Positions 115 to 17,809 of a DNA stretch of 17,809 nucleotides are shown piece after piece. The notes beneath the pieces are model-generated. The model saw only the letters and a list, made by a program, of their open reading frames with translations. It was not told where the DNA came from and did no database searches. The translations under genes and the position numbers were made by a program. The first letter of the stretch is position 1. Each line of letters starts with the position of its first letter. Source of the stretch: an uncultured Flavihumibacter sp. (GTDB lineage Bacteria > Bacteroidota > Bacteroidia > Chitinophagales > Chitinophagaceae); the NCBI GenBank assembly GCA_946481605.1, contig CAMLPA010000014.1:1-17809 (forward strand), given 5' to 3'.

Positions 115-2448
115 CTAGATGGGCGTAACCCGGTATATAACATATTCCCCTGGCTGCAATCTAAAAGCAGTGAATTTTTCCTTCTTCCAGTTTTCATTTA
201 CCACAAGCATTTTTTTGTGGGGTGGTTTGTTGTTGATCAGCACGGCCTGGCCATCAGGTATTCTTACAATGGCGGTGGTTCTTGCAGGAACGGTAACTTT
301 CATGGTGAAGCCTCCCGGTGTGTTTTCGAAAGCTGTTTTGATTTTTCCTTTTACTGTGGGCACTTCAATCGTTGCCATTGTAAAAGTTGCCGGACATGGT
401 TCTATCAAAAATGTTTTATACCCTGCCTCAAGTGGTTTAATTCCAAAAAGGTATTCCCCTAATACAATCTGTGCGCCGCCACTCCATGCGTGATTAGTGG
501 TACCTCCGCCATAGCCCTTCTCCCCTATGCCCCACCCTTCAAAAAGTGTGGTATAATCAGGATGCTCCACCATTTCTTCAAAACGGCGTTTTGTTCTTTC
601 CAGGGCATCATTTGCATACCCCATCACGAACAAGGCTTCCATCACATATTTTTCCATGTAAGGACTGGCGAAGTATTGTGTTTGGAACAGCTTTAAAAGT
701 TGCGGGTACTTTGAGGCATCGGCGATACCGGTTATAACTGCCAGCGCCTGCGCACGATCGTCGGTCTCCAGGGTATAATCCGGATGGCGGTAAGCCTGTC
801 CGTTCCAGCAACGGTTAAACCCTTTTTTTACTGCTTCCATTGTATTGGAAAATATTTGCCTGTCTGCATCGTACCCCAGCAATCCGGCCATATTCGCTGC
901 GCCTTTCAGCGCCAGGTAATGCCAGCCGGCCATAATCAGCCTGATGTCTTTGTTTTCACCCCAATCGCCCCAGAGCCAGTCGCCTTTCCGAAGCACGGTG
1001 AGCCCGGTTTCATCCGTTTGCCATAAGGAAAGGTATTTTTTAACGGCGGGATATACTTCGTCTATCGTTTTGCGGTCACCGGTATTTATATAATAATTCC
1101 AGAAACCATAATAGCCGATACTGGTAAGCATCTGGTCGGGCAATTCGCCTTTAAAGTTTCCGGGTATCGGAGAGAAAAGCTGGCCTTCAGGACGCTGCCA
1201 TGCGGCCAATTCGCGGATGGCTTTGCGCATAAGCGCGTGCGTGGAAATCGAAGCCGTATAAAAACATTCTCCCATCAGCAAGACCACATCTCCCCACCAC
1301 TGGGCGCGTTCTCTGTCGGGACAATCGAAATAATTATCGCGCATGTTCACATACAAGGTACGTGATGCTTTTTCCCAGAACCGGTTATAAAATTCATCAC
1401 TGCAACGAAAACTTTGCGCCATCTCCGTATCGTAACCAGTTTCGCGGTATTGAACGGAAATTACCTTCACTCCGGCGGGAACGGTCAATATTATTTTGTC
1501 ACCATTCAACCACCCATAGGATTCATATTCCTGGTATCCCTTTTGGGTAATGTAGGCTGCCCGGAGGTTCATGTCGCCACCACTTCGGCTATGGTCCGTA
1601 GCAATACCGATCAGGTTTTTACCAGCATCGTCGTGAAGTGCAATGATTGGCATCATCTGCATATTGTAAGGTAAGCTGGCGAAAATAGTATCCACTTTTT
1701 CACCAGGATGCCGTTTGAATGGCGCGGTTTTAATACCGAAATCTTTCCAGAACGGGATCGGACGTTCTACCAGTTTGTTCCAGGGCGCGTCGCCGGGGCG
1801 TCCTGCTTCTTTTGCGGGTTGAAATCCCGGAAGTTGTGCAACAGGTAGCGTGCACCAGCCGGGAATATCCTTTTCTGCATCAAAACAGATATTGGATTCT
1901 GGTAAGCGATTGTTCGGAGGAGGGCCAGCCGCGGTGCTGTAAGCGGGATGCCGTCGGGAAACCCAGTTTTTATCGCTCACCAGTTTAAACCGACCTGCTT
2001 TCATGCTGAACAGTAGCCCGGACTTCCCACTATTGATGTGAGAGAAGCCATCTTTTCCGAAATGCCACACCAGCACAGCGATGGCGTTATTACCTTTTCT
2101 AAGGTATGGCGCAAGGTCAACCTTATCATAATAGGAATCGGTTGGTGTGGGGCCACGTTTGAGTCCACCTTCAAATACCACAAGTTCCCCATTGATCCAG
2201 AGCCAATACTTAGTATCTGCCGCAATGATGGTTTCGGCGTACTTAGGCTTGCTTTCCAATGTAAAGTCTCTTCTGAAAGCGATCCAGGTATTGGGTGCAT
2301 TTACTTGTTCTTCGGGGGATGTAATCCAATAACCAGGAAGTTCCTTCGCTGTAGCGCAAACCGGTTGAATGAATCTCATCCACAGGCATACCAACATAAA
2401 CAGCTTGATTAAGCCTGCTCTTTCCATTGCGTTAAACTCTTTTTTCAT
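115..2448 (-). CDS. GH78 family alpha-L-rhamnosidase-like exported enzyme
   Basis: The 777-residue product should release terminal alpha-L-rhamnose from a plant-type glycan by an inverting mechanism. The N-terminus has a hydrophobic export signal (about residues 10-33). A beta-sandwich part follows with a WLWINGELV stretch (about 80-92) typical of rhamnosidase N domains, then an (alpha/alpha)6-barrel. The motif DCPDRERAQWWGD places D375, E380 and D387 at the same spacing as the acidic residues known in Bacillus RhaB. The TTLFEGW motif gives E637 as the likely general base. A second ATG at 2427 (residue 8) has an AAGAG stretch just upstream and could be the true start; both keep the signal peptide. 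The gene faces away from the rest of the locus but carries the same operator (2559-2620). The family call is firm; substrate linkage is inferred. Confidence 0.88.
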   Translation of the reverse strand: MKKEFNAMERAGLIKLFMLVCLWMRFIQPVCATAKELPGYWITSPEEQVNAPNTWIAFRRDFTLESKPKYAETIIAADTKYWLWINGELVVFEGGLKRGPTPTDSYYDKVDLAPYLRKGNNAIAVLVWHFGKDGFSHINSGKSGLLFSMKAGRFKLVSDKNWVSRRHPAYSTAAGPPPNNRLPESNICFDAEKDIPGWCTLPVAQLPGFQPAKEAGRPGDAPWNKLVERPIPFWKDFGIKTAPFKRHPGEKVDTIFASLPYNMQMMPIIALHDDAGKNLIGIATDHSRSGGDMNLRAAYITQKGYQEYESYGWLNGDKIILTVPAGVKVISVQYRETGYDTEMAQSFRCSDEFYNRFWEKASRTLYVNMRDNYFDCPDRERAQWWGDVVLLMGECFYTASISTHALMRKAIRELAAWQRPEGQLFSPIPGNFKGELPDQMLTSIGYYGFWNYYINTGDRKTIDEVYPAVKKYLSLWQTDETGLTVLRKGDWLWGDWGENKDIRLIMAGWHYLALKGAANMAGLLGYDADRQIFSNTMEAVKKGFNRCWNGQAYRHPDYTLETDDRAQALAVITGIADASKYPQLLKLFQTQYFASPYMEKYVMEALFVMGYANDALERTKRRFEEMVEHPDYTTLFEGWGIGEKGYGGGTTNHAWSGGAQIVLGEYLFGIKPLEAGYKTFLIEPCPATFTMATIEVPTVKGKIKTAFENTPGGFTMKVTVPARTTAIVRIPDGQAVLINNKPPHKKMLVVNENWKKEKFTAFRLQPGEYVIYRVTPI

Positions 2449-3289: not shown

Positions 3290-6200
3290 ATGCGTATTTC
3301 TTACACCAAAACCTGCTTACAACCTGGCAAAACAACTCTTTTGTTGTTACTGTGCCTGCTTCTTTGCGGGTACTATGCCCAAAGCACCCCTCCCACTTCT
3401 GTAAGGAATTTAAGTATTGAAAACGGCCTATCGAACAATACCATTACCAGCATTTACCAGGACAGGTTTGGCTTTTTGTGGATCGGCACCTACGATGGCA
3501 TCAACCGGTATGACGGTTATGGGTGCAAAATTTTCAGACACCGGCTGAACGACACCACTTCCCTCGTAAACAATAAGATCACGTGCATCACCGAAGACAA
3601 ATCGGACCGTCTGTGGATTGGCACTAAAAAGGGACTCTGTACTTTTTCAAATACCACACAACGTTTTTCACCCGTATATTATAGAACCGGTTCCGGAAGC
3701 GCTCAGGCGAAAGTCCTGAAAGGGATCCCGGTAAACGAAGTGCTCGTCACAAAAGCAGGTGATATACTCGTGGCCCCGCAATCTCTGGGTTTGATGCGGT
3801 ACAACAATACATCGGGCCTGATGGAGCAGATACCTGTAAAATCGGGCAACGGCGCCGCTGTTCACGATTTTCATATCACGGCACTGAAAGAAGATAGAAA
3901 CGGGACGATCTGGGTGATGGTGTACCAGATGGGAATTGGGCAATACCATCCATCTACCAAAGAAATTACCATCCTCAATACTGAACTCACCACCTGTTCG
4001 CTGATGGAAACTGATGGGAAGGGCAATGTGCTCATCGCTCTGGTAAACAGGTTCTACAGCTACAATATCCGTTCAAATAAAATTCAGTCGCTCGGCTATC
4101 CTTCTCCGAAGGCGGAAAGAATTCTCTGTTTCTATCAAACATCACAACGGCTGCTGATGGGCACAGACGGTGGCGGCATCTTTGCTTTTAATGAAGAGAA
4201 AGGCATTCATGTTCCCGCTGATCTGCAAACCATCAACAGCGATTTTGTCTCCGCTCTTTTTGTAGACAAGAAAGGCAACAAATGGGTAGGTACATTACAG
4301 CAGGGACTATTCTGCCGGCAGAAAGGTGAAAAAGTATTCGGGTCGCTTGAGCATACGCCTGGTAACCCAAACAGTTTACCCGGGAATTTTGTCTCCTGTT
4401 TTGAGTACGACGGCAATGGCAAATACTGGATCGGCATTGAAGGTGCCGGGGTATGCCTCTGGGAACCTGAAGTGAACAAATTCAAGACTTTTAACGGAAA
4501 GAACGGCCTTTCAAGTCATGTAATCACCACCATCCGTAAAACTGCTGATGGAAACGTATGGGTGGGCACCTACGGAAAAGGTGTTGACAAATTTGATGCG
4601 AAGAGCGGACGTTTTACCAACTACACCTTCATCAATAAAAAAGCAAACACTTACGAAGGAAACGTATGGACACTCTTTGAAGACAAGGGCGGAACATTAT
4701 GGGCAGGAACGGTAACCGGATGCCTGTTCACCTTCAATAAAAGCGCCAATACGTTTGAAGTGTATGATCATACCCTACGCGACATCCTATGCATTACAGA
4801 AGATAAGAAAGGGGAACTTTGGGCGGGCAATTTTGAAGCACTGATCAGGATCGATAAAAAAAGCGGTCAACACAAATTATACCCTACAGAAGCACCTGTG
4901 CGGGCCATCCGGGAAGACAGAAAAGGAAGGTTCTGGATTGCTACCGAAGGAAACGGATTGCTGCTTTTTGACAGAAACAGCGGCCATTTTGAAGCATTCA
5001 CAGAAGAAAACGGACTGGCCAATAATTCTGTATTGAACATTGTTGAAGATAAAAACGGAGACCTTTGGCTGACTACATTCAACGGATTATCAAGGTTGAA
5101 CATTGATACAAAAAAATTCACCAATTATTTTCAGACCGATGGACTTCAATCGAACCAGTTCATCTACAATGCCGCCTTCGCCGCGCCATCCGGACAACTT
5201 TTTTTCGGAACACTGAAAGGGATGAATTATTTCAACCCGGACAGCATTGCGCTCAGTTATACCCCCGCGCCCATTGTGATTACAGACCTGCGGATCAACA
5301 ACCAAACGGTAGCACAAAACAGCACCTTCACGGAGAACCAGGTGATGTACACGCTGAGCGAACTTGAATTACCTTACGACCAGGCCATCGTATCCATCGA
5401 TTTCGCATCACCAGAATTCAATAACCCGGACCAGATTGCTTACGCCTATTACCTGGAAGGATGGGACAAACACTGGAACCATTCCGGCAAAGTAAGAACA
5501 GCGCATTACAGCCGCCTGGAGGAAGGCACTTACACCCTGCGCATCAGGTCAACTGATCCAGGTGGTACGTGGACGCGCAACGAAAAAGTAATTTCCATCA
5601 AAGTATTGCCGCCATGGTACCGGAGCTGGTGGGCATGGACACTGTACATTTCGATTGCCGTAAGCATACTCGGAATGTACCTCCGCTTCAGTAGTAAGCA
5701 AACAAAACTGGCTTTTGAAGTAAAACTGGCGCATATCAACGCGGAACGCGAACAGGAAATCAACAGGCGAAAACTGGATTTCTTCACCAATATCGCACAC
5801 GAATTCAGGACACCGCTAACGCTCATCATTAATCCTATAAAGGATTTGCTCCATAAACAAGGCAACAGTTTAGAAAGTGCAGGCATGAAAATGGCCTTCA
5901 GAAACAGTAAAAGATTACTCAGTCTGGTAGACCAACTGTTGCTTTTCAAAAAAGCGGACAGTGGCGCCGACGACCTTCGCGTAGCGAAACTCAACCTGGT
6001 GCATGTTTGCAGAGAAGTTTTCCTCTGTTTTTCGCAACAGGCCAAAACACAGGAACTGCAGTACAGTTTCGAGAGCGCCATCCAGGAACTAGAAATATAT
6101 GGCGACCGTGAAAAAATTGAGATTGCCGTATTCAACCTGATCTCCAACGCCATGAAATTTACGCCGCCGGGTGGGCGCATACAAATCATTTTATCGGAAG

Positions 6201-7402
6201 GAGCAAATGAAGCCGAACTGATTGTAGCGGATACGGGCTGCGGCATTCCGCCGGAAGAAAGTGCACGCCTTTTTGATAGATTTTATCAGTCGAAACAAAC
6301 AGGTCCCGCCACCAAAGCAGGTTTCGGCATCGGCCTCTTCCTCGCAAAAAGTTTTGCGGAAGCGCACAAAGGAAGCCTCAGCTTTACTTCTGTCCCCGAA
6401 AAAGGAACAAGTTTCTCCCTTACCCTTCCGAAGGGCCTCGCCCATTTCAACCCGGCACAAATCACCAGTTCGGCTGTGCAGCAATCAGAACTTTTACAGG
6501 AACTTGCTGTACATGAAGAACCGATTGTGCTTCCTGCTGAAAAAGAACTGCCGCCGCCGGAAGCAGGCACCGGCACACTGATCAGTTCAGGGCACAGTAT
6601 ACTGGTAGTGGACGACAACGAAGGCATACGCACCTACCTGAAACAGGTTTTCCAGGAAAACTTCAGGATACTTGAAGCTACCAATGGAAAAGAAGGACTT
6701 GCCCTGGCCAAACAATACCAGCCCGACATCATCATCAGCGATATTGTGATGGATGAAATGAGTGGCATCGAATTTTGCACAGCCATCAAGGAAGACCCGA
6801 CCCTCAACCATATTCAACTCATCCTGCTTACCGGAAGTTCTTCCGCTGAAATAAAACTGAAAGGAGTGGAATGCGGGGCCGACGACTACATTACCAAGCC
6901 CTTTGAAAAAGAATTGCTGCTGGCCCGGGTGGCGAGTTTATTGAAAAGCAGGAACAATATTCAGAAATATTTCTACAACGAAGTGACACTGCAAAGGAAT
7001 AACCTCTCTATTTCAGAAGAATACAAAATCTTCCTGGAGAAGTGCATCGAAATTGTGGAAGCGAACTTTGATAAAGATGACTTTTCCATTAAACAGTTCG
7101 CCAGGGAAATGGGCATGAGCCATTCCAACCTGTACAAAAAGGTAAAACATGTTTCCGGGCAGTCTATTAACGGGTTCCTCCGTTTTCTGCGACTGCGCAA
7201 AGCGGCTGAATTACTGATTACCACAGATTGCAATGTGAACGAGGCCGCTTTCCAGGTAGGCATCGGCGACAGTAAATATTTCCGGACCCAGTTCGCCAAA
7301 CTTTTCGGGATGAATCCTTCTGAATACCGGAAACGTTACCACCACACTTTCAGTAAAAATTACCAGGTGAACGAGAAAGCAGTGAACCGGCTTAAGGCCT
7401 GA
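3290..7402 (+). CDS. Hybrid two-component system (HTCS) regulator of the PUL
   Basis: This 1370-residue protein joins sensor, kinase, receiver and DNA-binding parts in one chain in the inner membrane. After a signal or anchor segment (about 15-30) come two-component-regulator propeller repeats (about 35-660, recurrent motifs such as FLWIGT, RLWIGT, NVWVGT). A Y_Y_Y domain (about 665-775) and a single membrane helix (about 781-800) follow. The kinase has the H box IAHEFRTP with H837, the N box with N953 and a DTGCGIPP G box (D981). The receiver has D1108, D1109, phosphoacceptor D1151, T1181 and K1203, so all key residues are intact. An AraC-type HTH domain (about 1248-1350) ends the protein. 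HTCS proteins typically bind an oligosaccharide in the periplasm and activate the adjacent susCD locus. The tandem sites at 2559-2620, 7435-7492 and 8780-8837 are its likely targets. Confidence 0.96.
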   Translation: MRISYTKTCLQPGKTTLLLLLCLLLCGYYAQSTPPTSVRNLSIENGLSNNTITSIYQDRFGFLWIGTYDGINRYDGYGCKIFRHRLNDTTSLVNNKITCITEDKSDRLWIGTKKGLCTFSNTTQRFSPVYYRTGSGSAQAKVLKGIPVNEVLVTKAGDILVAPQSLGLMRYNNTSGLMEQIPVKSGNGAAVHDFHITALKEDRNGTIWVMVYQMGIGQYHPSTKEITILNTELTTCSLMETDGKGNVLIALVNRFYSYNIRSNKIQSLGYPSPKAERILCFYQTSQRLLMGTDGGGIFAFNEEKGIHVPADLQTINSDFVSALFVDKKGNKWVGTLQQGLFCRQKGEKVFGSLEHTPGNPNSLPGNFVSCFEYDGNGKYWIGIEGAGVCLWEPEVNKFKTFNGKNGLSSHVITTIRKTADGNVWVGTYGKGVDKFDAKSGRFTNYTFINKKANTYEGNVWTLFEDKGGTLWAGTVTGCLFTFNKSANTFEVYDHTLRDILCITEDKKGELWAGNFEALIRIDKKSGQHKLYPTEAPVRAIREDRKGRFWIATEGNGLLLFDRNSGHFEAFTEENGLANNSVLNIVEDKNGDLWLTTFNGLSRLNIDTKKFTNYFQTDGLQSNQFIYNAAFAAPSGQLFFGTLKGMNYFNPDSIALSYTPAPIVITDLRINNQTVAQNSTFTENQVMYTLSELELPYDQAIVSIDFASPEFNNPDQIAYAYYLEGWDKHWNHSGKVRTAHYSRLEEGTYTLRIRSTDPGGTWTRNEKVISIKVLPPWYRSWWAWTLYISIAVSILGMYLRFSSKQTKLAFEVKLAHINAEREQEINRRKLDFFTNIAHEFRTPLTLIINPIKDLLHKQGNSLESAGMKMAFRNSKRLLSLVDQLLLFKKADSGADDLRVAKLNLVHVCREVFLCFSQQAKTQELQYSFESAIQELEIYGDREKIEIAVFNLISNAMKFTPPGGRIQIILSEGANEAELIVADTGCGIPPEESARLFDRFYQSKQTGPATKAGFGIGLFLAKSFAEAHKGSLSFTSVPEKGTSFSLTLPKGLAHFNPAQITSSAVQQSELLQELAVHEEPIVLPAEKELPPPEAGTGTLISSGHSILVVDDNEGIRTYLKQVFQENFRILEATNGKEGLALAKQYQPDIIISDIVMDEMSGIEFCTAIKEDPTLNHIQLILLTGSSSAEIKLKGVECGADDYITKPFEKELLLARVASLLKSRNNIQKYFYNEVTLQRNNLSISEEYKIFLEKCIEIVEANFDKDDFSIKQFAREMGMSHSNLYKKVKHVSGQSINGFLRFLRLRKAAELLITTDCNVNEAAFQVGIGDSKYFRTQFAKLFGMNPSEYRKRYHHTFSKNYQVNEKAVNRLKA

Positions 7403-7434
7403 CCTGCTTATTTCCGGGCGCTTTTTACTATTCC

Positions 7435-7492
7435 ACCCCCCTTTTTTGAACATTCACCCCCTATGGTTCCGCTCCATAACTGTGCATTTTGC
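7435..7492 (+). promoter_or_regulatory. Putative HTCS operator and promoter of the HExxH lipoprotein gene
   Basis: Two direct C-rich half-sites, ACCCCCCTTTTTTG (A at 7435) and ATTCACCCCCTATGG (A of ACCCCC at 7456), lie 21 bp apart. The element GCATTTTGC (7484-7492) follows, with its TTTG starting 32 bp after the second A. The ACCCCCTATGG and GCATTTTGC blocks recur at 8801-8811 and 8829-8837 with an identical 17-nt spacer of unrelated sequence. No TTTG-type -33 element is visible where the second half-site sits, which fits an activator bound next to RNA polymerase. Transcription would start about 30 nt before the ATG at 7529 (inference). Confidence 0.72.
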
Positions 7493-7528
7493 ATTGGCTG
7501 ATTCATCCATTGACCAAAACATACAGTT

Positions 7529-8746
7529 ATGAAAAAACTTCTTTTCCCGCCGCTCTTCGCGGCCCTTGCCGCTGCATGCGTATTTGCCTGCAGCAAAAAA
7601 TCGGGGCCGGAAGAGGAGCCTCCCGTTGTAACGCCTGAACTCACCATGCCCGCCGTTAGTGCAGACAGTGTGCGCAATATCACCACAGCAAGCGCAACAT
7701 TTTACGGCAACGTACCTTCAAACGGCGGCGCAGCACTTTCCGACCGCGGCATTTTTATTGGCGCCACCGCCACACCTACGGAAAACAAAACGGCGGCCAC
7801 CAGTTACCAGACCAACGGCCGTTTTACCGTGGAACTAAAACAACTTACACCCAATACAACCTACTTCATCCGCGGTTATGCCACCAATAGCAAAGGCACC
7901 TCCTACTCCACGGACATTCAATTCACCACCACCAATGTGCCACAGGCAGAAGTATTTACCGACACGATTTTCGCCAGCGGCGCCAGCACCCTGTTCGCCG
8001 CCGGTAAAATAGTGGACACCAAGAGCATCCCAATGCGGGAAGTAGGCATCTGCCTGAGTAAAAACACCAACCCCACTGTTGCCGACACCAAAATAGCCGC
8101 CGCCAGCAGCAACGAACAAAATCTTTTCTTCCGTTTCAATAACCTGGAACCTTCCACTACCTATCACATCAGAACCTACGCCACCAATACCTACGGCTCC
8201 ACTGTTTATGGTGCGGACGTTACAGTATCCACCATTGCCCGCGGAAATGTGACCTATACCCTGAACCAGAACGCCTACCCCACCGATGAAGAAAAAGCAG
8301 CTTACGCCAGGATAAAATCAGCGTTCGACGATGCAATGGTTTACTACAACAACTATACTTCCATCACCAAACACCTTACGGTAAACTACAATCCCGGTGT
8401 CCCCACCGCAGATGCTACCATTGCCGGGAATATCCGGGTGGGCTCCAATGCCGGTTACCAGCGCACCGGTACAGCACTTCATGAAATTGCCCACGCTGTG
8501 GGTGTGGGACAGCATTACATCTGGAACCAACTGATCCAGGGGGGTACCTACCAGGGGCTGCACGCGAACAGGATGCTGCGTTTCATGACCCGTAATCCCA
8601 GCGAAGCCATCAAGGGCGATGCACTCCATTTCTGGCCCTACGGCATCAACGGCGCCAACGAAGATACCGGCCAGGAAATACTCTATATCACCAATGTACT
8701 CATCATGCAGGGGATGAAAAAAGACGGATTACCCAGCAGCTATTGA
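7529..8746 (+). CDS. Surface lipoprotein with two FN3-like repeats and a metzincin-like HExxH domain
   Basis: The 405-residue product has a lipoprotein signal peptide ending VFAC (C21), so it is probably anchored in the outer membrane. Two repeats of about 95 residues (roughly 41-136 and 140-235) share the pattern L-x-P-x-TTY-x-IR-x-YATN-x-x-G and resemble fibronectin type III folds. The C-terminal part (about 240-405) carries HEIAHAVGVGQH: H318, E319, H322, G325 and H329. This resembles the metzincin zinc motif HExxHxxGxxH, but the last histidine is one residue late and Q328 holds the usual ligand place. A later stretch, DALHFWPYGIN, looks conserved-type but is not one I can assign. It may be a zinc peptidase or a binding protein built on that fold. 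It has its own copy of the PUL operator just upstream, so it likely belongs to the regulon. Confidence 0.75.
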   Translation: MKKLLFPPLFAALAAACVFACSKKSGPEEEPPVVTPELTMPAVSADSVRNITTASATFYGNVPSNGGAALSDRGIFIGATATPTENKTAATSYQTNGRFTVELKQLTPNTTYFIRGYATNSKGTSYSTDIQFTTTNVPQAEVFTDTIFASGASTLFAAGKIVDTKSIPMREVGICLSKNTNPTVADTKIAAASSNEQNLFFRFNNLEPSTTYHIRTYATNTYGSTVYGADVTVSTIARGNVTYTLNQNAYPTDEEKAAYARIKSAFDDAMVYYNNYTSITKHLTVNYNPGVPTADATIAGNIRVGSNAGYQRTGTALHEIAHAVGVGQHYIWNQLIQGGTYQGLHANRMLRFMTRNPSEAIKGDALHFWPYGINGANEDTGQEILYITNVLIMQGMKKDGLPSSY

Positions 8747-8779
8747 GAAAAGACCATATTAAGGCTGAATTACCAATCT

Positions 8780-8837
8780 GCCCCCGCTTTTTGGTGATTT
8801 ACCCCCTATGGGCCCTGTAGTATATAACGCATTTTGC
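8780..8837 (+). promoter_or_regulatory. Putative HTCS operator and promoter of the susC operon
   Basis: Direct half-sites GCCCCCGCTTTTTGG (from 8780) and ATTTACCCCCTATGG (A of ACCCCC at 8801) are 21 bp apart. GCATTTTGC (8829-8837) has its TTTG 32 bp after the second A. The arrangement matches 7435-7492 position for position. The CCCCCGCTT form also matches the second half-site at the GH78 promoter. The TTTG overlaps the in-frame TTG at 8834, which argues that this TTG is not a start codon and supports ATG 8900. The predicted leader is about 55 nt. Confidence 0.72.
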
Positions 8838-8899: not shown

Positions 8900-11800
8900 A
8901 TGACCCAAAAACGACAACCGGGAAAGTTGGGGAAGCAAGGTTTCTTCTTCCTCCTATTCCTGTTTCTGGCAAACCTTACCACTTCGGCACAAACCGAAAT
9001 TACGGTAACGGGTAAGGTGCGGAGCGACTCTTCCGCACTGGAAGGCGTTACCATTACCGTAAAAGCGAATCCCGGTCGGGTGGCTGTTTCAGGCCCCGGC
9101 GGTATCTACTCCATCAAAGCGCCGGCCAACGGCATCCTTGTTTTTACCAGTGTGGGCTACCAGACTTTAGAGCAGCCCATTGAAGGTAACGACAAGATTG
9201 ATGTAAAAATGACCACCGATTTCCAGGCGATGGACAATGTGGTGGTAAGCGTAGGCTTCGGTACACAGAAAAAAACCAGCCTGGTAAGTTCCATTACTTC
9301 AGTTGACCCCAAAGAACTGAAGGGGCCAACCAGTAACCTCACCAATATGCTGGCGGGAAGGGTTGCAGGCGTAATCGCTTACCAACGGACGGGAGAACCG
9401 GGATCGGACAACGCGTCTTTCTTCATCCGCGGACTCGGTTCCTTTGGAGCGGGAAAAGTGGATCCACTGATTCTGATCGATGGTATAGAATCCACCAATA
9501 ACGACCTGGCCCGCTTGCAGCCAGATGATATTGCTTCGTTCTCCGTACTGAAAGATGCCACTGCGGCAGCAGTATACGGGGCAAGAGGTGCAAACGGCGT
9601 GTTGATTATTACCACCAAAACAGGTAAAGCAGGTGCAACATCCTTCACCGGCAGGTTTGAAAATTCTCTTTCCACCAATACAAGGAATTTCCAGCTTACG
9701 GACAATATTACCTATATGAATATGGCCAACCAGGCCGCGCTCACCAGGAACTCACCGGGCGGAGCTCCTTATTCTCAGACTAAAATCAACCGAACCACCG
9801 CGGGAGACAATCCACTGCTGTATCCGAACAACAACTGGATCGACATGCTGATCGATGATTATACCATCAACCAGCGCTTCAACTTCGGTGTTTCCGGCGG
9901 CTCAGAAAAAGCACGTTATTACATCGCAGGAACGTATAATGTGGACAATGGCTTGCTGAAAGAAAATAAGCTGAACGGCTTCAGCAACAACATCCAGTTA
10001 AAGAATTATTCCGTCCGTTCAAATATTGACCTTAAAGTCACGAATACCACATCCGCCGCACTCAGGATGTATGGCCAGTTCGATGACTACAACGGGCCGA
10101 TTGGCGACCGCAGAAGTGATGGCACCATGGGCAGTGGCGGGCAGCGTGTATTCAACCAGGCGATCTGGTCAAACCCGGTAATGTTCCCTGCTATCTATCC
10201 GCAGGCATACCTGCCGCACATCAAACACCCGCTTTTTGGTAACAGCACCATCCCTGGGCTTTCCACGCCTACTATGTACAGCAACCCTTACGCCAATATG
10301 ATGTCGGGCTTCGCACAAAGCAATGCTTCCACATTACAGGTACAGGTAGAACTGAAACAGGATATGGGCGCCATTACGCCAGGACTTTCAGGACGGGTGA
10401 TGACGTACACCAGGAGATATGGCTATTTTGATATGCAACGCAGCTACACCCCATTCTATTACAAAGCAGTTTCCTACGACGACCGGAACATTGACGCATT
10501 GAATGTACTGAATGGCGGCGGACAGAATACAATTAACCCCGTGGGTACAGAATTCCTGGGTTACTCCGAAGGGTACAAAATGGTGAACAGCATATTCTAT
10601 ACAGAAGCAGCACTGAACTACAACAGAACACTGAATGATGTTCATGAACTTTCGGGTATGGTAATCGGTACGATGCGAAACTACCTTACAGGCAATGCTT
10701 CCACGCTGGAAGCCAGTCTGCCCGCTAGGAACCTGGGCGTATCCGGAAGGTTTACTTATGGTTACGACAGGCGCTACCTCGCTGAATTTGATTTCGGCTA
10801 CAACGGTTCTGAAAAATTCGATAAAGCGTCCAGCAGGTTTGGTTTCTTCCCCTCCATAGGCCTGGCCTGGAACGTATCCAACGAAAAATTCTTCGACAGG
10901 TTCGCCGACAAAGTTACCAACCTGAAACTGAGGGGCACTTATGGCCTGGTGGGCAACGACCAGATCGGTAATTCGAACGACAGGTTCTTTTACATGTCGA
11001 TGGTGAACATGAATGCAGGCGGGTACACATTCGGGCTGGATTACAACTTTAACCCCGGCGGCATTGCAGTGCAGCGCTACGCCAACCCTGAAATCACCTG
11101 GGAAAAAACAAAACAACTGAACGTGGGCATGGACCTCACCATTATGAACGCGCTCACCTTCACAGTGGATGCTTACAAAAACAAACGTTCACAAATCCTG
11201 ATGCCCCGCTCTTATATTCCGTCCACCATGGGTCTTCAGGCGGGTGTTTCTGCTAACGTAGGAAAAACCGAAGTGAAAGGTGTTGACCTGTTGCTGAACT
11301 ACAACAAAACCATCAACAAGAAAGTATGGCTGGAAGGCAGGGCTAACCTTACTTATGCCACGGGAAAAATTACGGTGTATGATGAACCCGATTACGGAGA
11401 CGCATTGTCTAATCTGTACAGACAGGGTTCCAGGATCGGACAGGTATATGGTTACATTGCCGAGCGCCTTTTCTACGATGAAAAGGAAGTGCTGAATACG
11501 CCAAGAACACCTTATGAGAATGTAATGGGTGGCGACATCAAATACCATGATGTGGATGGCGATGGCAGAATTACCAGTAACGACGTGGTTCCCATCGGTT
11601 TGCCCACCACCCCGGAGGTCATCTACGGCTTCGGTGGCTCGGTTGGTTACGGCAACTTCGATTTCAGCATTATGTTCCAGGGTTCTGCAAGATCTTCTTT
11701 CTTCATCAACCCGCAGAACATTTCTCCCTTCGTAAGGAATGGCGGCGCACAGAACGGACTGCTCACGGCTATTGCTGAAAACCACTGGAGCGAAGACAAC

Positions 11801-12100
11801 AGGAACAGTTATGCTTTCTGGCCAAGACTCAGCAACCAGTTCATCGACAACAACAACCTCACCTCTACCTGGTGGATGAGAGATGGTTCTTTCCTCCGGT
11901 TGAAAAATATGGAATTCGGTTATTCCATCCCCACGCGCCTGTTGAATAAAATCAAATTCAAAACCACCAGGATTTACATCAACGGCAGCAACCTTCATGT
12001 ATGGAGCGCTTTCGACATGTGGGATCCTGAAATGGGCGGCAACGGCTTAGGTTACCCTGTTCAGCGTGTATTCAACGCCGGTATCAACTTCAATCTCTAA
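8900..12100 (+). CDS. susC: SusC-like TonB-dependent outer membrane glycan importer
   Basis: This protein of 1066 residues imports oligosaccharides across the outer membrane using TonB energy, in complex with the SusD protein encoded next. I chose ATG 8900 over the upstream in-frame TTG (8834) because the latter falls on the promoter element. A signal peptide precedes a TTSAQ cleavage region (about residue 30). A carboxypeptidase-regulatory-like domain follows (about 33-110), then a TonB-box-like stretch (VVVSVGFGTQKK) and the plug domain with LAGRVAGV, FFIRGLGS, PLILIDGIE and the classic VLKDATAAAVYGARGANGVLIITTK. The rest is a beta-barrel ending in NAGINFNL, with a terminal aromatic and hydrophobic strand suited to barrel assembly. 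There is no STN domain, so it is not a transducer type. The length is normal for the family. It is the first gene of a four-gene operon. Confidence 0.96.
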   Translation: MTQKRQPGKLGKQGFFFLLFLFLANLTTSAQTEITVTGKVRSDSSALEGVTITVKANPGRVAVSGPGGIYSIKAPANGILVFTSVGYQTLEQPIEGNDKIDVKMTTDFQAMDNVVVSVGFGTQKKTSLVSSITSVDPKELKGPTSNLTNMLAGRVAGVIAYQRTGEPGSDNASFFIRGLGSFGAGKVDPLILIDGIESTNNDLARLQPDDIASFSVLKDATAAAVYGARGANGVLIITTKTGKAGATSFTGRFENSLSTNTRNFQLTDNITYMNMANQAALTRNSPGGAPYSQTKINRTTAGDNPLLYPNNNWIDMLIDDYTINQRFNFGVSGGSEKARYYIAGTYNVDNGLLKENKLNGFSNNIQLKNYSVRSNIDLKVTNTTSAALRMYGQFDDYNGPIGDRRSDGTMGSGGQRVFNQAIWSNPVMFPAIYPQAYLPHIKHPLFGNSTIPGLSTPTMYSNPYANMMSGFAQSNASTLQVQVELKQDMGAITPGLSGRVMTYTRRYGYFDMQRSYTPFYYKAVSYDDRNIDALNVLNGGGQNTINPVGTEFLGYSEGYKMVNSIFYTEAALNYNRTLNDVHELSGMVIGTMRNYLTGNASTLEASLPARNLGVSGRFTYGYDRRYLAEFDFGYNGSEKFDKASSRFGFFPSIGLAWNVSNEKFFDRFADKVTNLKLRGTYGLVGNDQIGNSNDRFFYMSMVNMNAGGYTFGLDYNFNPGGIAVQRYANPEITWEKTKQLNVGMDLTIMNALTFTVDAYKNKRSQILMPRSYIPSTMGLQAGVSANVGKTEVKGVDLLLNYNKTINKKVWLEGRANLTYATGKITVYDEPDYGDALSNLYRQGSRIGQVYGYIAERLFYDEKEVLNTPRTPYENVMGGDIKYHDVDGDGRITSNDVVPIGLPTTPEVIYGFGGSVGYGNFDFSIMFQGSARSSFFINPQNISPFVRNGGAQNGLLTAIAENHWSEDNRNSYAFWPRLSNQFIDNNNLTSTWWMRDGSFLRLKNMEFGYSIPTRLLNKIKFKTTRIYINGSNLHVWSAFDMWDPEMGGNGLGYPVQRVFNAGINFNL

Positions 12101-12110
12101 ATCAACTGTA

Positions 12111-14033
12111 ATGTTCAAAGGAAAAAATATATTAATCGCATCCATCTGCACGATCCTCGCGTTCACGTCGTGCAAGAAGTATATGGATATCGTTCCGGAC
12201 AACGTCCCCACGATAGACCACGCATTCTCGCTCCGCACGCAGGCGCTCAAATACCTGACCACCTGCTATTCCTACCTTCCCAACAATGCTGATCCACAGG
12301 GCAACGTAGGCTTTCTTGGTGGTGACGAAATATGGTTCCCCTCCGAGTACCGCGAATTTGATACGGAAATATGGAGCTGGAGCATTGGAAGAGGATTTCA
12401 GAACGTGACCGAACCGCACGTGAATTACTGGGATGGTTCCCGTTATGGCGTGAACACTTTCCAGGCCATCCGGCAGTGTAACATCTTCACGGAAAATGTG
12501 TCTGACCCCGCTAAGGTGGTGGACCTTACACAAACCGAAAGAGAAAGATGGCTGGCGGAAGTAAAATTCCTGAAAGCCTACTACCATTACCTCCTGCTGC
12601 GCATGTACGGCGCGTTCCCGCTGATGGATGAGAACATCCCTGTATTCGCCGAGCCGGAGGACGTAAAAGTGAGCCGGGTACCATTCGACAGTTGCGTTAA
12701 CTACATTGTACGGTTGATGGACGAATCTATGTCGTCTCTTCCTGCATTCATCGCTGATCGCAACACGGAATTGGGCCGCATCACCCTTCCCATCGCGAAA
12801 GCCATCAAAGCCCGTGTACTTGTTCTGGCAGCCAGCCCGTTGTTCAACGGCAACCCTGACCTCGCTGCTTCAAAGAACCACGATGGAACGGCACTGTACA
12901 ACAACGAATACGACCAGCAAAAATGGGTGAGGGCTGCTGAAGCCTGTAAAGATGCGGTGCAGGAAGCCGAACTTCAGGGATTCGCCTTGTACAAATTCCC
13001 GCCCACATCATTCAAATTATCCCAACAAACCATTACCCAGCTTAGCATACGCCAGGCCATCTGCGACAGGTGGAACACCGAAAAAGTATGGGGCAATTCA
13101 AGCAGGCTCGCCAGCAGGCTACAACAGACCTGTATGGGAAGAATCGCTTCCAATGCAGCGTCCAATACCAGCATGAGGGCCATGTTCAGCGCCACCATGA
13201 AAATGGCTGAAATGTTCTATACGAAAAATGGTGTACCCATCAGCGAAGACAAAACCCTTGATTATGAAGACAGGTATCAACTCAGAACAGCCGTAGACAG
13301 TGAAAGATACCTTATTGAACCGGCTTACAAAACAGCCAGGCTCAACTTCGACCGTGAACCACGCTTCTATGCAGACCTCGGTTTCGATGGCGGCACCTGG
13401 TACCTGTACAGCAGCCCCACCAACTCCGATTCCGGCACGTATGTAATGCGTGGAAAAGCCAATCAGTATGGCGGAAGCGATATTGGCGGCGGTATCAACC
13501 AAACAGGTTACTTCATTAAGAAACTGGTAGACTGGAACTTCAGCTTCAGCGACAATGGGATAACCATCCGCTCTTACGAATGGCCCGAAGTAAGACTTGC
13601 CGACCTCTACCTCCTTTATGCAGAAGCACTGAATGAAGCAGATGGCCCACAGGATGAAGTTTGCGCACTCCTGAATAAAGTAAGGGAAAGAGCGGGTATC
13701 CCTTCCGTACAGGAAGCCTGGAGCCAGTATTCCACTAACCCGAATAAATACACGAACAAAACCGGAAGAAGAGAAATCATCAAACGTGAAAGAGCGATTG
13801 AAATGGCCTTTGAAGGAAGCCGTTTCTGGGACCTGCGCCGCTGGAAAGATGCCGCTTTTGAAATGAACCAGCCCGTAAAAGGATGGACCGTTACCGGCAC
13901 AACGGATGATACATACTACCAGGTAAGAACCATCTACCAACAGCGTTTCGTTTCCCCGCGCGATTACCTGTGGCCCATCAAACTTTACAACCTTTCCGTG
14001 AACCCCAACCTGGTACAGAATCCCGGATGGTAA
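12111..14033 (+). CDS. susD: SusD/RagB-like surface glycan-binding lipoprotein
   Basis: This 640-residue protein forms the lid of the SusC channel and binds the target glycan. The start ATG lies 10 nt after the susC stop; a GTG at 12066 in the same frame overlaps susC and is unlikely. The signal peptide ends LAFTSC (C21), followed by KKYMDIVPD, a common SusD N-terminus. The N-terminal SusD-like region contains EVKFLKAYYHYLLLRMYGAFPLMDE. The C-terminal RagB/SusD domain contains EVRLADLYLLYAEALNEA, RERAIEMAFEGSRFWDLRRWKDA, and ends with the typical DYLWPIKLYNLSVNPNLVQNPGW. Nothing is truncated. The position directly after susC and the shared transcript are standard for a PUL. Confidence 0.96.
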   Translation: MFKGKNILIASICTILAFTSCKKYMDIVPDNVPTIDHAFSLRTQALKYLTTCYSYLPNNADPQGNVGFLGGDEIWFPSEYREFDTEIWSWSIGRGFQNVTEPHVNYWDGSRYGVNTFQAIRQCNIFTENVSDPAKVVDLTQTERERWLAEVKFLKAYYHYLLLRMYGAFPLMDENIPVFAEPEDVKVSRVPFDSCVNYIVRLMDESMSSLPAFIADRNTELGRITLPIAKAIKARVLVLAASPLFNGNPDLAASKNHDGTALYNNEYDQQKWVRAAEACKDAVQEAELQGFALYKFPPTSFKLSQQTITQLSIRQAICDRWNTEKVWGNSSRLASRLQQTCMGRIASNAASNTSMRAMFSATMKMAEMFYTKNGVPISEDKTLDYEDRYQLRTAVDSERYLIEPAYKTARLNFDREPRFYADLGFDGGTWYLYSSPTNSDSGTYVMRGKANQYGGSDIGGGINQTGYFIKKLVDWNFSFSDNGITIRSYEWPEVRLADLYLLYAEALNEADGPQDEVCALLNKVRERAGIPSVQEAWSQYSTNPNKYTNKTGRREIIKRERAIEMAFEGSRFWDLRRWKDAAFEMNQPVKGWTVTGTTDDTYYQVRTIYQQRFVSPRDYLWPIKLYNLSVNPNLVQNPGW

Positions 14034-14060: not shown

Positions 14061-15257
14061 ATGAACTTACGAACCATATTTCCCGCCTTCGCCGTTTGCT
14101 CGCTCAGCATCCTGGCCGCATGTGCGAAAAAAGACGCCTTCAACGACCCGCTCACGCCCAGCAGCGGCACGCCCGGCATTGTAACCAGTGTGGCTGTTAC
14201 CAACGACAGTGCAAAAGCCGTGATCAGTTATACAGTGCCGAACATACCGGATATCGCTTATGTAAAAGCTGTATATGACATTGGTGGCGGAAGAATGCGC
14301 GAAGTGAAAGCAAGCATCTACGAAAAATCACTGGTGGCCGATGGATTTGGAGACACCCTTGAACACGATATTAAACTGTATGTCGTAAACAAGGCAGAAG
14401 TAGCCTCAGAACCCGTTACAGTTAAAGTGAAACCACTCGAAAACCCGATCTGGGGCGTGTTCCGCAATATGGAAGTACTGCCCGATTTCGCAGGAATCAG
14501 GATCAAATCGAAGAATCCCTCCAAATACAACCTGGCCATTGAAGTGATGGTAGATTCCGTTGGACAGTGGTTCCCATTCTCCGGTGTGTACACTTCACTC
14601 GACAGCATCAACGCAGCCATCAGGGGAATGGACACCATTCCCAAAAAACTCGCGGTTTACGTGAGAGACAGGTTTATGAATATAAGCGACACGTTGTTTA
14701 CCACGCTCACCCCATTCTATGAAACACCAATAGCAAAAAGCGGATACCGGGAATACGCGCTCCCGGGCGACTCCCCTTCCGCCTGGGCTTCCAACAGGGT
14801 GGCCAACCTATGGGACGGAAACACAGAAGTATGGCCCGGTGTGAACATCACCACCGACCAGGGAAAACCATCCGTGATCACTTTTGATATCGGGCGTCCC
14901 GCACAACTCAGCCGCATCATGATCTGGGATTATCCCGAATACCTGAACTCAGGCCGTGCCTTCTACTACGGCGGCAACCCAAGAAGATTTGAAATATGGG
15001 GTAGCGCCAACCCTCCGCTGGACGGCAGTTTCAACAACTGGACCCTGCTGGCGGAATGTGAGCAGATCAAACCCTCCGGACTTCCTTACGGCCAATCCAC
15101 CAACGAAGACAGAACCATTGGCTTCGCAGGACTCAACTGGGACCTTCGTTCCGATGTGCCCAAAATGCGGTACATCCGCATCAGGTGTCTGCAAAACTGG
15201 GCCGGTTCCTATTTCATGGCGCTGGGTGAAGTACAGGTGTACGGTGACCCCCGCTAA
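14061..15257 (+). CDS. Surface glycan-binding lipoprotein, DUF4959/DUF5126/DUF5000-type
   Basis: This 398-residue lipoprotein has a textbook lipobox LAAC (C21) after the signal peptide. By its overall layout I assign a DUF4959-like Ig-type domain (about 25-125), a DUF5126-like domain (about 130-225) and a C-terminal DUF5000, F5/8-type-C-like beta-sandwich (about 235-398). The last is supported by NLWDGNTEVWPG, PSVITFDIGRPAQLSRIMIWDY, FEIWGS and MRYIRIRCLQNW..LGEVQVYG. Such proteins commonly follow susCD and are thought to bind the target polysaccharide at the cell surface. The gene starts 27 nt after susD in the same operon. Domain names come from recognition of the sequence pattern, not from a search. 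The ligand is unknown. Confidence 0.85.
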   Translation: MNLRTIFPAFAVCSLSILAACAKKDAFNDPLTPSSGTPGIVTSVAVTNDSAKAVISYTVPNIPDIAYVKAVYDIGGGRMREVKASIYEKSLVADGFGDTLEHDIKLYVVNKAEVASEPVTVKVKPLENPIWGVFRNMEVLPDFAGIRIKSKNPSKYNLAIEVMVDSVGQWFPFSGVYTSLDSINAAIRGMDTIPKKLAVYVRDRFMNISDTLFTTLTPFYETPIAKSGYREYALPGDSPSAWASNRVANLWDGNTEVWPGVNITTDQGKPSVITFDIGRPAQLSRIMIWDYPEYLNSGRAFYYGGNPRRFEIWGSANPPLDGSFNNWTLLAECEQIKPSGLPYGQSTNEDRTIGFAGLNWDLRSDVPKMRYIRIRCLQNWAGSYFMALGEVQVYGDPR

Positions 15258-15283
15258 TTTGGTAATCACACAAAAAACAACAG

Positions 15284-16531
15284 ATGAAACCAGGTATATC
15301 AAAACTATTCCGGAAAGTACTGTTCGCCGGCGCACTGATCGCCGCAACAGTATCCTGTTCCAAAATGGATGAGTACAAAGAAAAATATGTTCCCAACGGA
15401 GAAATCGTGTACACCGGAAAAATAGACAGTGTGCACATGTTTCCAGGAAAAAACAGGGTGGGCTTCACCGCATTTCTCACAAACGACCCACGCGTTTCCA
15501 TATTCCGCGTTTACTGGGGCGCCAGGGCCGACTCTGCCACTTTCCCGTTGAAAGCATCAGAACTGGGCACCGCTGTGTACAGGGTGATCCCAAATGTACC
15601 GGAGGGAGAACAATCTTTTGAATTCGTCACTTTTGATGATGCCGGTAACAAATCCGTTTCTTTCTATGGAAACGTGGCCTCCTTCGGAACCAGGTTCCAG
15701 GAATCCCTCAACAACAGGGGCATCAAAGACAGTTGGCTGAATGCCGACCTGGAAACGGTAGTAAATCTCGGAGGTATGGATACCGCAACCAAAGCCATCC
15801 TTACAGAAATCCGTTACCTGACCACCAATGGCGATAGCGCCTCCATCCGTGTGCCACTGCTGTTGCCCAACACGGAATCGGATACCGTGCTGGCAAACCA
15901 TAAGTACGGTTCAGAAGTGATTTTCAGAACATACTTCCTGCCCGCGAAAAATTCCATCGATACATTCTATACTCCCTTCGCGACCTACCAACCCGTTTCA
16001 GGCGCAGCATGGATCGACCTCACCACGCAGTTCGTGAAGAACCCCGGAGCACCTTTCGCAAGGGCTTCCTGGGACGGATCAAGATGGGGTATACTCGCCG
16101 ACTGGACCAGCAACGCTGATGTAAGAAACACCTCAGGCGGAAATGGCGGATGGGAACTGCGAAGTGGTGCAGGCTTCCTCTCAATGGAAGGCGGATGGGG
16201 ACTTCCAGCCGTTCCGAATGGTAAGATTTACCAAACGGTAAGTTTACCTTATGCCGGCAAATGGCGCTTCATGGCGTATATGAACGACCTTGGCGCATCG
16301 GGCACCAAATACCTTGTGGTAAATAAAGGCACAACAGTTCCTGATTTCACCAATATTGCGTCCGCAACGCATTCCTTCAATTTCTCCACCGTTTCAAGAA
16401 CGGCAACACCTTACATCGAATTCACTGTTGATGAACCTACAGAAGTAACCATCGGTTTCGTGGCAAACATGCCCAACACCGGAAGTTATTACAAAGTAGG
16501 CAGGGTAACATTGAGTTTCCTTAAAGAGTAA
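15284..16531 (+). CDS. Surface glycan-binding lipoprotein, DUF4998/DUF5013-type
   Basis: This 415-residue lipoprotein has a signal peptide ending TVSC (C25), followed by SKMDEYKEKYV, a start typical of DUF4998 proteins. The N-terminal part (about 30-240) is DUF4998-like with two Ig-type folds (GKIDSVHMFPGKNRVGF; FRVYWGARADSATFPL). The C-terminal part (about 245-415) is a DUF5013-like beta-sandwich resembling carbohydrate-binding domains: SWDGSRWGILADWTSN, GGNGGWELRSG, KIYQTVSLPYAGKWRFMAYM, and SYYKVGRVTLSFLKE at the end. It is the last gene of the susC operon, 26 nt after the previous stop and just before the terminator at 16553. A second surface glycan-binding role is inferred from position and fold; no catalytic motif is visible. 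Confidence 0.82.
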   Translation: MKPGISKLFRKVLFAGALIAATVSCSKMDEYKEKYVPNGEIVYTGKIDSVHMFPGKNRVGFTAFLTNDPRVSIFRVYWGARADSATFPLKASELGTAVYRVIPNVPEGEQSFEFVTFDDAGNKSVSFYGNVASFGTRFQESLNNRGIKDSWLNADLETVVNLGGMDTATKAILTEIRYLTTNGDSASIRVPLLLPNTESDTVLANHKYGSEVIFRTYFLPAKNSIDTFYTPFATYQPVSGAAWIDLTTQFVKNPGAPFARASWDGSRWGILADWTSNADVRNTSGGNGGWELRSGAGFLSMEGGWGLPAVPNGKIYQTVSLPYAGKWRFMAYMNDLGASGTKYLVVNKGTTVPDFTNIASATHSFNFSTVSRTATPYIEFTVDEPTEVTIGFVANMPNTGSYYKVGRVTLSFLKE

Positions 16532-16590: not shown

Positions 16591-16644
16591 CAACCTGTTA
16601 TCCCATCATTTTCTTTACATTTAATGTTTCAGAATACTATCATA
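16586..16644 (+). promoter_or_regulatory. Possible weak promoter region of the GH30 gene
   Basis: Between the terminator and the GH30 start there are 59 AT-rich bases. TACATTTA (16616-16623) matches seven of eight positions of the Bacteroidota -7 consensus TAnnTTTG. No convincing -33 element is seen at the expected distance, and no C-rich half-site is present. Expression may instead depend on read-through of the terminator. Confidence 0.25.
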
Positions 16645-17809
16645 ATGAGATTACCCTTACTATCCCTTATTATCTTACCGGCAACAGGCTTCGCGCAGCA
16701 AAACAAAGCCATCCATTTTACCATTCATCCGGACCGTAAAGAGCAGGTCGTGGACAATATCGGCGCCTCCGGTTGCTGGTTCTCCGAGGGCATCGGCAAA
16801 TACTGGCCCGAAGAAAAAAAAGAACAGATCGCGGAATGGCTCTTCAGCAAAGAACTGGATCAAACCGGAACACCAAAAGGAATCGGGCTTTCTGCCTGGC
16901 GTTTCAACATTGGCGGCGGAACCGCTGAACAGGGCGACAGCAGCGGCATCAAAGATTTCAGAAAAAGAGTGGAGAGCTTTCAGAACCCGGATGGCTCCTA
17001 CGATTGGAGCAAACAATCGGGCTACCTCTGGTTCGTAAAAAAAGCAAAAAATTACGGCGTTGAAAACCTGATCGCTTTCTCCAATACGCCGCCCGTTCAT
17101 TTCACAAAAAACGGACGCGGCTTTAAAACAGAAAAAGATTTCACGGCCAACCTTCGTCCTGATAAATACAGCGCTTACGCGGGATTTCTTGCAGATGTAC
17201 TGAAACATTTCCAGCAGGAAGGCATCTTCTTTAAATACATCAGTCCGGTGAATGAACCGCAATGGGACTGGAGCAACAAACCAGGGCAGGCAAGCCAGGA
17301 AGGAAGTCCATGGTACAATGAAGACATTTACAAAATTGCAACCGCCCTTGACAGTGCGCTTTCTGCGCATCAACTTACTTCCCGCATCATGATTACCGAA
17401 GCAGGTATGCTGGATTACCTCTATAAAAATAACGGTCGCGCAGGAGCGCAGATGCAGACATTTTTTAATCCGAAAAGCGCCTTGAACGTTTCAAAACTTA
17501 CACATACAGCGCCATTCATCGGCGGACACAGCTATTTTACGGATGGTGGAGACACGAACCGCATCCGCATCCGGCAGGCACTGAAAGATACCGCACACGC
17601 CTACGGCGTAGATTACTGGCAAACCGAATACTCCATGCTGGGCGAAGGTTTCAGAGAAGGCACCAGGGGTAGAAGAAGCGCCATGGACTGCGCTCTATTC
17701 CTGGCCAAAGTGATCCATACCGACCTGGCAGTGGCCAATGCAAAGGCCTGGCACCTCTGGAACAGTTACGAACCCGGCAATCCTTCCTTCGACACACGGT
17801 ATTTCCTGA
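16645..17809 (+). CDS. GH30 family exported glycosidase, endo-beta-1,6-galactanase-like (3' end missing)
   Basis: The first 388 residues of a secreted clan A TIM-barrel glycosidase are visible; the gene runs off the right edge with no stop. A signal peptide (MRLPLLSLIILPATGFA, cleaved about residue 17) precedes DNIGASGCWFSEGIGKYW, typical of GH30. LSAWRFNIGGGTAEQGDSSGI follows. The acid/base glutamate is expected in SPVNEPQW (E204) and the nucleophile in WQTEYSM (E328). Both are at plausible strand-4 and strand-7 places for a retaining enzyme. The sequence most resembles the GH30 group that includes endo-beta-1,6-galactanases, but the exact subfamily cannot be fixed by eye. It follows a strong terminator and lacks the tandem operator. 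A weak TACATTTA (16616-16623) may be part of its own promoter. Confidence 0.82.
   Translation, partial: MRLPLLSLIILPATGFAQQNKAIHFTIHPDRKEQVVDNIGASGCWFSEGIGKYWPEEKKEQIAEWLFSKELDQTGTPKGIGLSAWRFNIGGGTAEQGDSSGIKDFRKRVESFQNPDGSYDWSKQSGYLWFVKKAKNYGVENLIAFSNTPPVHFTKNGRGFKTEKDFTANLRPDKYSAYAGFLADVLKHFQQEGIFFKYISPVNEPQWDWSNKPGQASQEGSPWYNEDIYKIATALDSALSAHQLTSRIMITEAGMLDYLYKNNGRAGAQMQTFFNPKSALNVSKLTHTAPFIGGHSYFTDGGDTNRIRIRQALKDTAHAYGVDYWQTEYSMLGEGFREGTRGRRSAMDCALFLAKVIHTDLAVANAKAWHLWNSYEPGNPSFDTRYFL

Follow-up and report, generated by a model that had tools for sequence, protein, structure and literature searches.

The window, by which we mean the whole stretch of 17,809 nucleotides that was analysed, is a polysaccharide utilisation locus (PUL). 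It comprises, in order, an alpha-L-rhamnosidase gene on the minus strand, a glyoxalase-like gene, a complete HTCS gene, and the genes of a HExxH lipoprotein, SusC, SusD, two lipoproteins and a GH30_2 hydrolase. The rhamnosidase (positions 115–2448, minus strand) belongs by its Pfam match to the 6-hairpin family. The HTCS regulator (3290–7402, plus strand) has Pfam matches to the Reg_prop propeller, Y_Y_Y, HisKA, HATPase_c, the receiver (Response_reg) and an AraC-type HTH, uniting within a single protein the propeller sensor, histidine kinase, receiver and AraC-type HTH by which an HTCS is defined. Its HTH_18 match spans residues 1271–1349 (nucleotides 7100–7336; Pfam). A solved structure in the PDB (12aw_A), titled 'hybrid two-component system protein', spans the receiver and the HTH (E-value of 2.3e-51) and could serve for modelling the DNA complex.

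The remaining genes lie on the plus strand. SusC (8900–12100; TonB receptor plug and CarbopepD_reg_2), SusD (12111–14033), the two lipoproteins (14061–16531; DUF4959/5126/5000 and DUF4998/5013) and the GH30_2 glycoside hydrolase (16624–17809, incomplete at the window end) were assigned by Pfam. The susC start was set to the ATG at 8900 because the mechanically assigned TTG start at 8834 overlaps the −7 element described below. The lipoprotein that follows the HTCS (7529–8746; Pfam and open reading frame list) contains HEIAHAVGVGQH, of the form HExxH, together with fn3-like repeats, and has no Pfam zincin match. An ortholog is also found between HTCS and SusC in loci L035 and L066–L069, and none of these six lipoproteins, that of the window included, matches the stricter HExxHxxGxxH pattern. 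The protein may be a surface hydrolase of this PUL that is so far undescribed.

Paired C-run sites in the window and their orthologs

Two sites on the plus strand, one ahead of the HExxH lipoprotein gene (site 1, 7435–7492) and one ahead of susC (site 2, 8780–8837), each consist of two C-run half-sites at a distance of 21 bp, with TTTGC 26 nt past the proximal one. In site 1, the distal half-site TCCACCCCCCTT (7432–7443, A at 7435) is followed at a distance of 21 bp by the proximal half-site TTCACCCCCTAT (7453–7464, A at 7456), and the −7-like element GCATTTTGC (7484–7492) shares TTTG, but not TA, with the Flavobacterium −7 box. The susC promoter comprises the distal half-site TCTGCCCCCGCT (8777–8788, G at 8780), the proximal half-site TTTACCCCCTAT (8798–8809, A at 8801) and again GCATTTTGC as the −7-like element (8829–8837). 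An earlier note on this DNA had proposed these two sites; its CCCCC pairs 21 bp apart stand, but the distal half-site of susC reads GCCCCC and not ACCCCC. A third copy, absent from that note, lies on the minus strand at 2619–2559, ahead of the rhamnosidase gene, and is built of AACCCGC, ACCCCC 21 bp on and, after 26 nt, TTTGC at 2563–2559. Its distal half-site TTAACCCGCTAT (2608–2619, A at 2616) and proximal half-site TTTACCCCCGCT (2587–2598, A at 2595) were located by a mismatch scan, and its −7-like element is GATATTTGC (2559–2567).

The pattern CCCNC-N16-CCCCC-N26-TTTGC matches these three sites and nowhere else within the window, and both the half-site spacing (21 bp from A to A or G) and the 26-nt distance to TTTGC are identical at all three. 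The HTCS thus has a candidate site ahead of three transcription units around it. No such site was seen within the window upstream of the GH30_2 gene, and no paired site upstream of the HTCS gene itself, where only a lone ACCCC is present.

The window has exactly two copies of CCCCC-N16-CCCCC (at 7436 and 8781), compared with a mean of 0.05 in 200 dinucleotide shuffles, of which 2 reached two copies. ACCCCCTATGG-N17-GCATTTTGC likewise occurs twice without mismatch, and was found in none of 200 shuffles, even with 3 mismatches allowed. C-run pairs alone at 2 mismatches were not above chance (15 found, 20 expected); the significance of the window sites comes from their exactness and their combination, and in combination the shuffle tests bear out both sites of the earlier note. 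The 17-nt spacers of sites 1 and 2 agree at 4 of 17 positions and are therefore unrelated; the two sites have 42 nt at 76% identity in common. Recent duplication of a promoter, already discounted in the earlier note, was ruled out, since each plus-strand site has its own separate counterpart in the orthologous loci L066, L067 and L068.

The same locus is present in one genome, G041, with a DNA identity of approximately 81%. Two of its sites match the strict pattern, and the remaining one, site 2, was recovered by alignment. All three promoters align with those of the window without indels; their spacers have partly diverged, with sites 2 and 3 the clearest cases. Site 1 is almost unchanged: the stretch from ACCCCCC through to the proximal site, and the proximal half-site itself, are identical. 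Site 2 keeps the proximal TACCCCCTATG and the register across a different spacer; its distal half-site is ATCCCC, and TTTTC replaces TTTGC at an unchanged distance. At site 3, one base of the distal half-site is changed, the proximal TTTACCCCCG is kept and GATATTTGC is identical, while much of the intervening sequence has been replaced at unchanged length; the spacing of this rhamnosidase site is 21 bp by its C-runs and 22 bp by the motif model. The proposal that spacer length is kept and spacer sequence is not agrees with these three promoters, which align in the same register. The order HTCS, HExxH, SusC, SusD is kept in L066, L067 and L068, where both plus-strand promoters have half-sites 21 bp apart and 32 nt between the proximal A and TTTGC; in L069 only the first plus-strand site was found. 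The putative operator sites are conserved among these orthologs.

Association with one HTCS subfamily

Bare patterns were searched in wider sets of genomes. In the 394 genomes of the family of G002 (Paraflavisolibacter caeni, Chitinophagaceae, carrier of locus L002), matches with no more than one mismatch were found at 26 places, distributed over 23 genomes; the reversed pattern had 5. The expectation that such matches in related genomes lie beside the regulator holds in part: for 16 of the 26, the 3-kb locus contains an HTCS or SusC match, and for the other 10 it contains neither. A search for exact TTTACCCC pairs in 247 phylum genomes gave 9 places, spread over 7 genomes, while the reversed pattern gave 3. 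A single one of the nine places (L209) has HTCS and SusC matches, so that the bare TTTACCCC pattern is not specific.

The receiver and HTH region of the window HTCS was then used as a query against 36 genomes, comprising 17 with a motif match in the 394-genome search, G002 as the entry point and 18 picked for size. Among the matches listed, HTCS identities are at least 48%, followed by a gap to 42% and less. The 99 listed members above this gap that were used form, with the window, a set of 100 subfamily loci, with as many as six members in one sampled genome; 42 loci below the gap, drawn from the same genomes, represent other HTCSs. Some listed loci were omitted for stops or short frames, and others were left out without such a defect. 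Members and other HTCSs fall on two sides of a supported branch in a quick tree, which carries a warning of long branches that meet, and the split rests also on the identity gap.

CCCC pairs in the non-coding DNA of the 100 subfamily loci peak at 21 bp (96, 116 and 91 pairs at 20, 21 and 22 bp), with shoulders near 11–12 and 32–33 bp. No comparable peak was found in coding DNA or in the 42 other-HTCS loci. A trained motif model, applied unmasked at 18 bits, finds a site in 87 of the 100 subfamily loci and in 3 of the 42 other-HTCS loci, an association by neighbourhood among related loci that are not independent of each other; 13 of the 100 have no site at this threshold in the places examined. 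When trained on 57 loci, the model finds 37 of the 43 held-out loci, which are those from the size-chosen and not the motif-chosen genomes, and 2 of the 42 other HTCSs. The rarity of the motif beside other HTCSs (3/42) rules out a general promoter feature of these genomes.

At the same threshold, matches occur inside the HTCS gene in none of the 100 loci and on the opposite strand after the HTCS in one, compared with 80 of 100 at the true spacing within 700 nt after the HTCS. With the model spacing shifted, 54 of 100 loci still match at 17–19 bp and 38 at 23–25 bp, because the C-runs let the match slip, and the numbers are 12 at 15–17 bp, 2 at 25–27 bp and 14 at 40–42 bp. With the −7 element displaced by 6 to 15 bases, 38–48 of the 100 still match. 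Subfamily sequences read backwards match in 13 of 100 loci at 20 bits, a poor control because a direct repeat remains one on reversal; the opposite strand, the inside of the gene, other spacings and other HTCSs are preferred to it. Column-permuted matrices gave up to 51, against 68, with a mean of 4, and some permutations probably keep the C-run.

Two further tests concerned the regions upstream of susC. A matrix built from the six half-sites of the window, paired at 20–22 bp, matches 41 of 96 subfamily regions (window and G041 excluded), 0 of 29 regions of other HTCSs and 0 of the 96 on the opposite strand. In a matrix-free test, 10 of 12 bases are repeated at a lag of 21 bp in 12 of 98 regions, with 22 bp (8 regions) and 14 bp (7 regions) as the next lags; for other HTCSs, no lag stands out among only 29 regions. 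Half-site spacing is also clustered on the HTCS tree, with 21 changes compared with at least 32 in 300 shuffles. Taken from sequence, these comparisons support an association of the C-run motif with one HTCS subfamily.

Site consensus, downstream genes and candidate reading residues

The best sites of 89 loci give a half-site consensus of about W-T-T-T-A-C-C-C-C-C-Y, with a T-tract after the distal half-site and a T-rich block that ends in an enriched TTTG. The half-sites are 20, 21 and 22 bp apart in 27, 34 and 28 of these best sites, respectively, although long C-runs leave the spacing of any one site open to an error of one base or more. From the A of the proximal ACCCCC to the start of TTTGC there are 30–34 nt, with a mode of 32 (35/89). 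The fixed promoter distance of the earlier note thus applies to the window locus and its nearest orthologs, but gives way to this range across the subfamily. The Flavobacterium sigma-A −7 box is reported as TAnnTTTG at −12 to −5 (PMC9723704). Compared with it, the three window promoters have the TTTG and lack the TA, of which site 3 keeps only the A. The position of that box would place the proximal C-run near −40 (about −41 to −35, a range set by placing the G of TTTG at −7 or −5). Part of the sites have a third C-run some 11–12 nt after the proximal half-site (for example in L131, L143 and L149), which accounts for the extra shoulders at 11–12 and 32–33 bp and is perhaps a contact of the second HTH or of a further subunit.

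The genes that follow were counted for 103 sites of at least 20 bits, with at most two per locus and a non-coding mask applied; the count is low because the mask hid a good site in L095. The next gene is SusC at 64 of the 103 sites and HExxH at 7, one of which (L080) is a separate short match; 27 next genes are unlabelled and 2 sites have no gene within 400 nt. Ten of the 27 unlabelled genes were scanned with Pfam, giving GH43 (three), GH2, GH28, BNR_4, LacI (two) and no match (two). The genes downstream of the sites are PUL-type genes and regulators. In L113 and L109, the C-run site behind the HTCS has a LacI-family regulator gene as its next gene, an arrangement that suggests a relay from the HTCS to a cytoplasmic sugar regulator.

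Subfamily members have, in their second recognition helix, D at position 1327 (94/100) and R at position 1332 (99/100), while other HTCSs have N (30/42) or D (7/42) at 1327 and mostly A, T or S at 1332. The site is absent in 5 of the 6 loci without D1327, compared with 8 of the 94 with it (P of about 1e-4 before correction; the tree shows no more than 4 changes, and its supported branches give 2 independent pairs). D1327 is the second of 68 columns tested, and the top column, 1232, falls outside the HTH_18 match. Some loci without D1327 show, by eye, GTCCC-type words instead. The pattern is suggestive of D1327 as a residue that reads the C-run. A broader scheme, in which this Chitinophagaceae HTCS group has a common C-run operator, its members are separated by spacing (20, 21 or 22 bp), −7 distance and flanks, D1327 and R1332 read the C:G run, and paralogs with a replaced D1327 have mostly lost the site, is tentative and would more probably fail than hold as a whole.

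Candidate control by the adjacent HTCS

The three sites are very probably operators of the adjacent HTCS, whose AraC-type domains would bind the direct repeats as a dimer and activate transcription beside the −7 box. In the proposed mechanism, a phosphorylated HTCS dimer would set its two AraC-type domains on the two direct half-sites (about WTTTACCCCCY) 21 bp apart, both on one face of the helix and two helix turns from each other. The proximal half-site would lie just upstream of the promoter, where a −33 element is otherwise expected, and from there the HTCS would help RNA polymerase at a weak −7 box. A single signal would in this way turn on the lipoprotein, SusCD and rhamnosidase units together; judged by the GH30_2 and rhamnosidase genes, arabinogalactan and rhamnogalacturonan are candidates for the inducing glycan. 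Binding by the HTCS, its dependence on phosphorylation, activation and the transcription start points are what we infer from the arrangement of the sites. AraC at araI1–araI2 of Escherichia coli is similar in that it is an activator on direct half-sites 21 bp apart, the nearer of which abuts the core promoter; it differs from the window in being a soluble one-component regulator, in acting at a sigma-70 −35/−10 promoter and in having no C-runs.

The C-run pair could instead be bound by another regulator, such as a global factor of the CRP type or a LacI regulator of this locus, with the HTCS as a bystander. LacI-type genes do follow a site in L113 and L109, but the motif accompanies one HTCS group (87 of 100 loci) and is rare beside the others in the same genomes (3 of 42), and its spacing clusters on the HTCS tree, although shared descent of locus and regulator would give the same clustering. 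Against a CRP-like factor, the C-run motif is a directional direct repeat, and the BT4338 consensus is given as a palindrome (PMC11501099). We consider another regulator improbable.

About equally improbable is that the HTCS binds the sites but represses, or holds them without phosphorylation. Its receiver motif lends this some weight, since residues 1173–1176 (nucleotides 6806–6817) read NHIQ where the S/CHIP of most Bacteroides HTCSs is expected, and the inhibitory contact between receiver and HTH may differ in this protein. Departures from S/CHIP are linked to phosphorylation-free binding in Gao et al. 2024, where one repressing HTCS is cited. However, H and I, two of the four motif residues, are kept, and the first position is loose across the group (S or C in 37 of the 100 subfamily HTCSs, with Q for P in 6 of 100). 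The site also lies upstream of the −7 box and not on it, as expected of an activator. C-runs arisen by chance, or recent copying of one promoter onto another, as the 42 nt shared by the plus-strand sites might suggest, have a negligible probability given the shuffle tests and the own counterparts of each site in G041, L066, L067 and L068.

Operation by the adjacent HTCS, the preferred reading, has precedent. The earlier note had held that no HTCS site of such form was described; this is contradicted by Ravcheev et al. 2013 (PMC3878776), who predict 16 HTCS motifs in Bacteroides thetaiotaomicron, direct repeats averaging 21 bp, and interpret them as bound by dimers two helix turns apart. As in the window, those motifs are paired direct repeats before PUL genes, including susC, and beside an HTCS. 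The window differs in its family (Chitinophagaceae), its C-run half-site, its 20–22 bp spacing and its measured −7 distance; for the half-site letters, this comparison covers the text of that paper. A response-regulator fragment of the HTCS BT0366 is reported to shift a promoter with a predicted site (PMC5061871), and gel shifts are reported for BT4124 and BT4663, with binding made possible by phosphorylation for BT4124 and greatly strengthened by it for BT4663 (PMC11253607). All three concern a receiver with an AraC-type domain, tested on promoter fragments with predicted HTCS sites; these are experimental results for other proteins and targets, whereas the window is known from sequence.

The form and, by analogy, the mechanism of the operator are thus already known for HTCSs, and the window sites appear to be a real, conserved operator set of that known kind, putative targets of the HTCS. 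What is new is the C-run consensus, its link to a subfamily, the promoter distance and the candidate reading residues; no description of the C-run lettering for this Chitinophagaceae HTCS group was found in a search of part of the open literature, figures aside. The finding provides a checkable operator consensus for glycan regulators outside gut Bacteroides, with target genes that are predictable from sequence, and raises the question of how paralogous membrane-bound regulators with near-identical sites distinguish their promoters.
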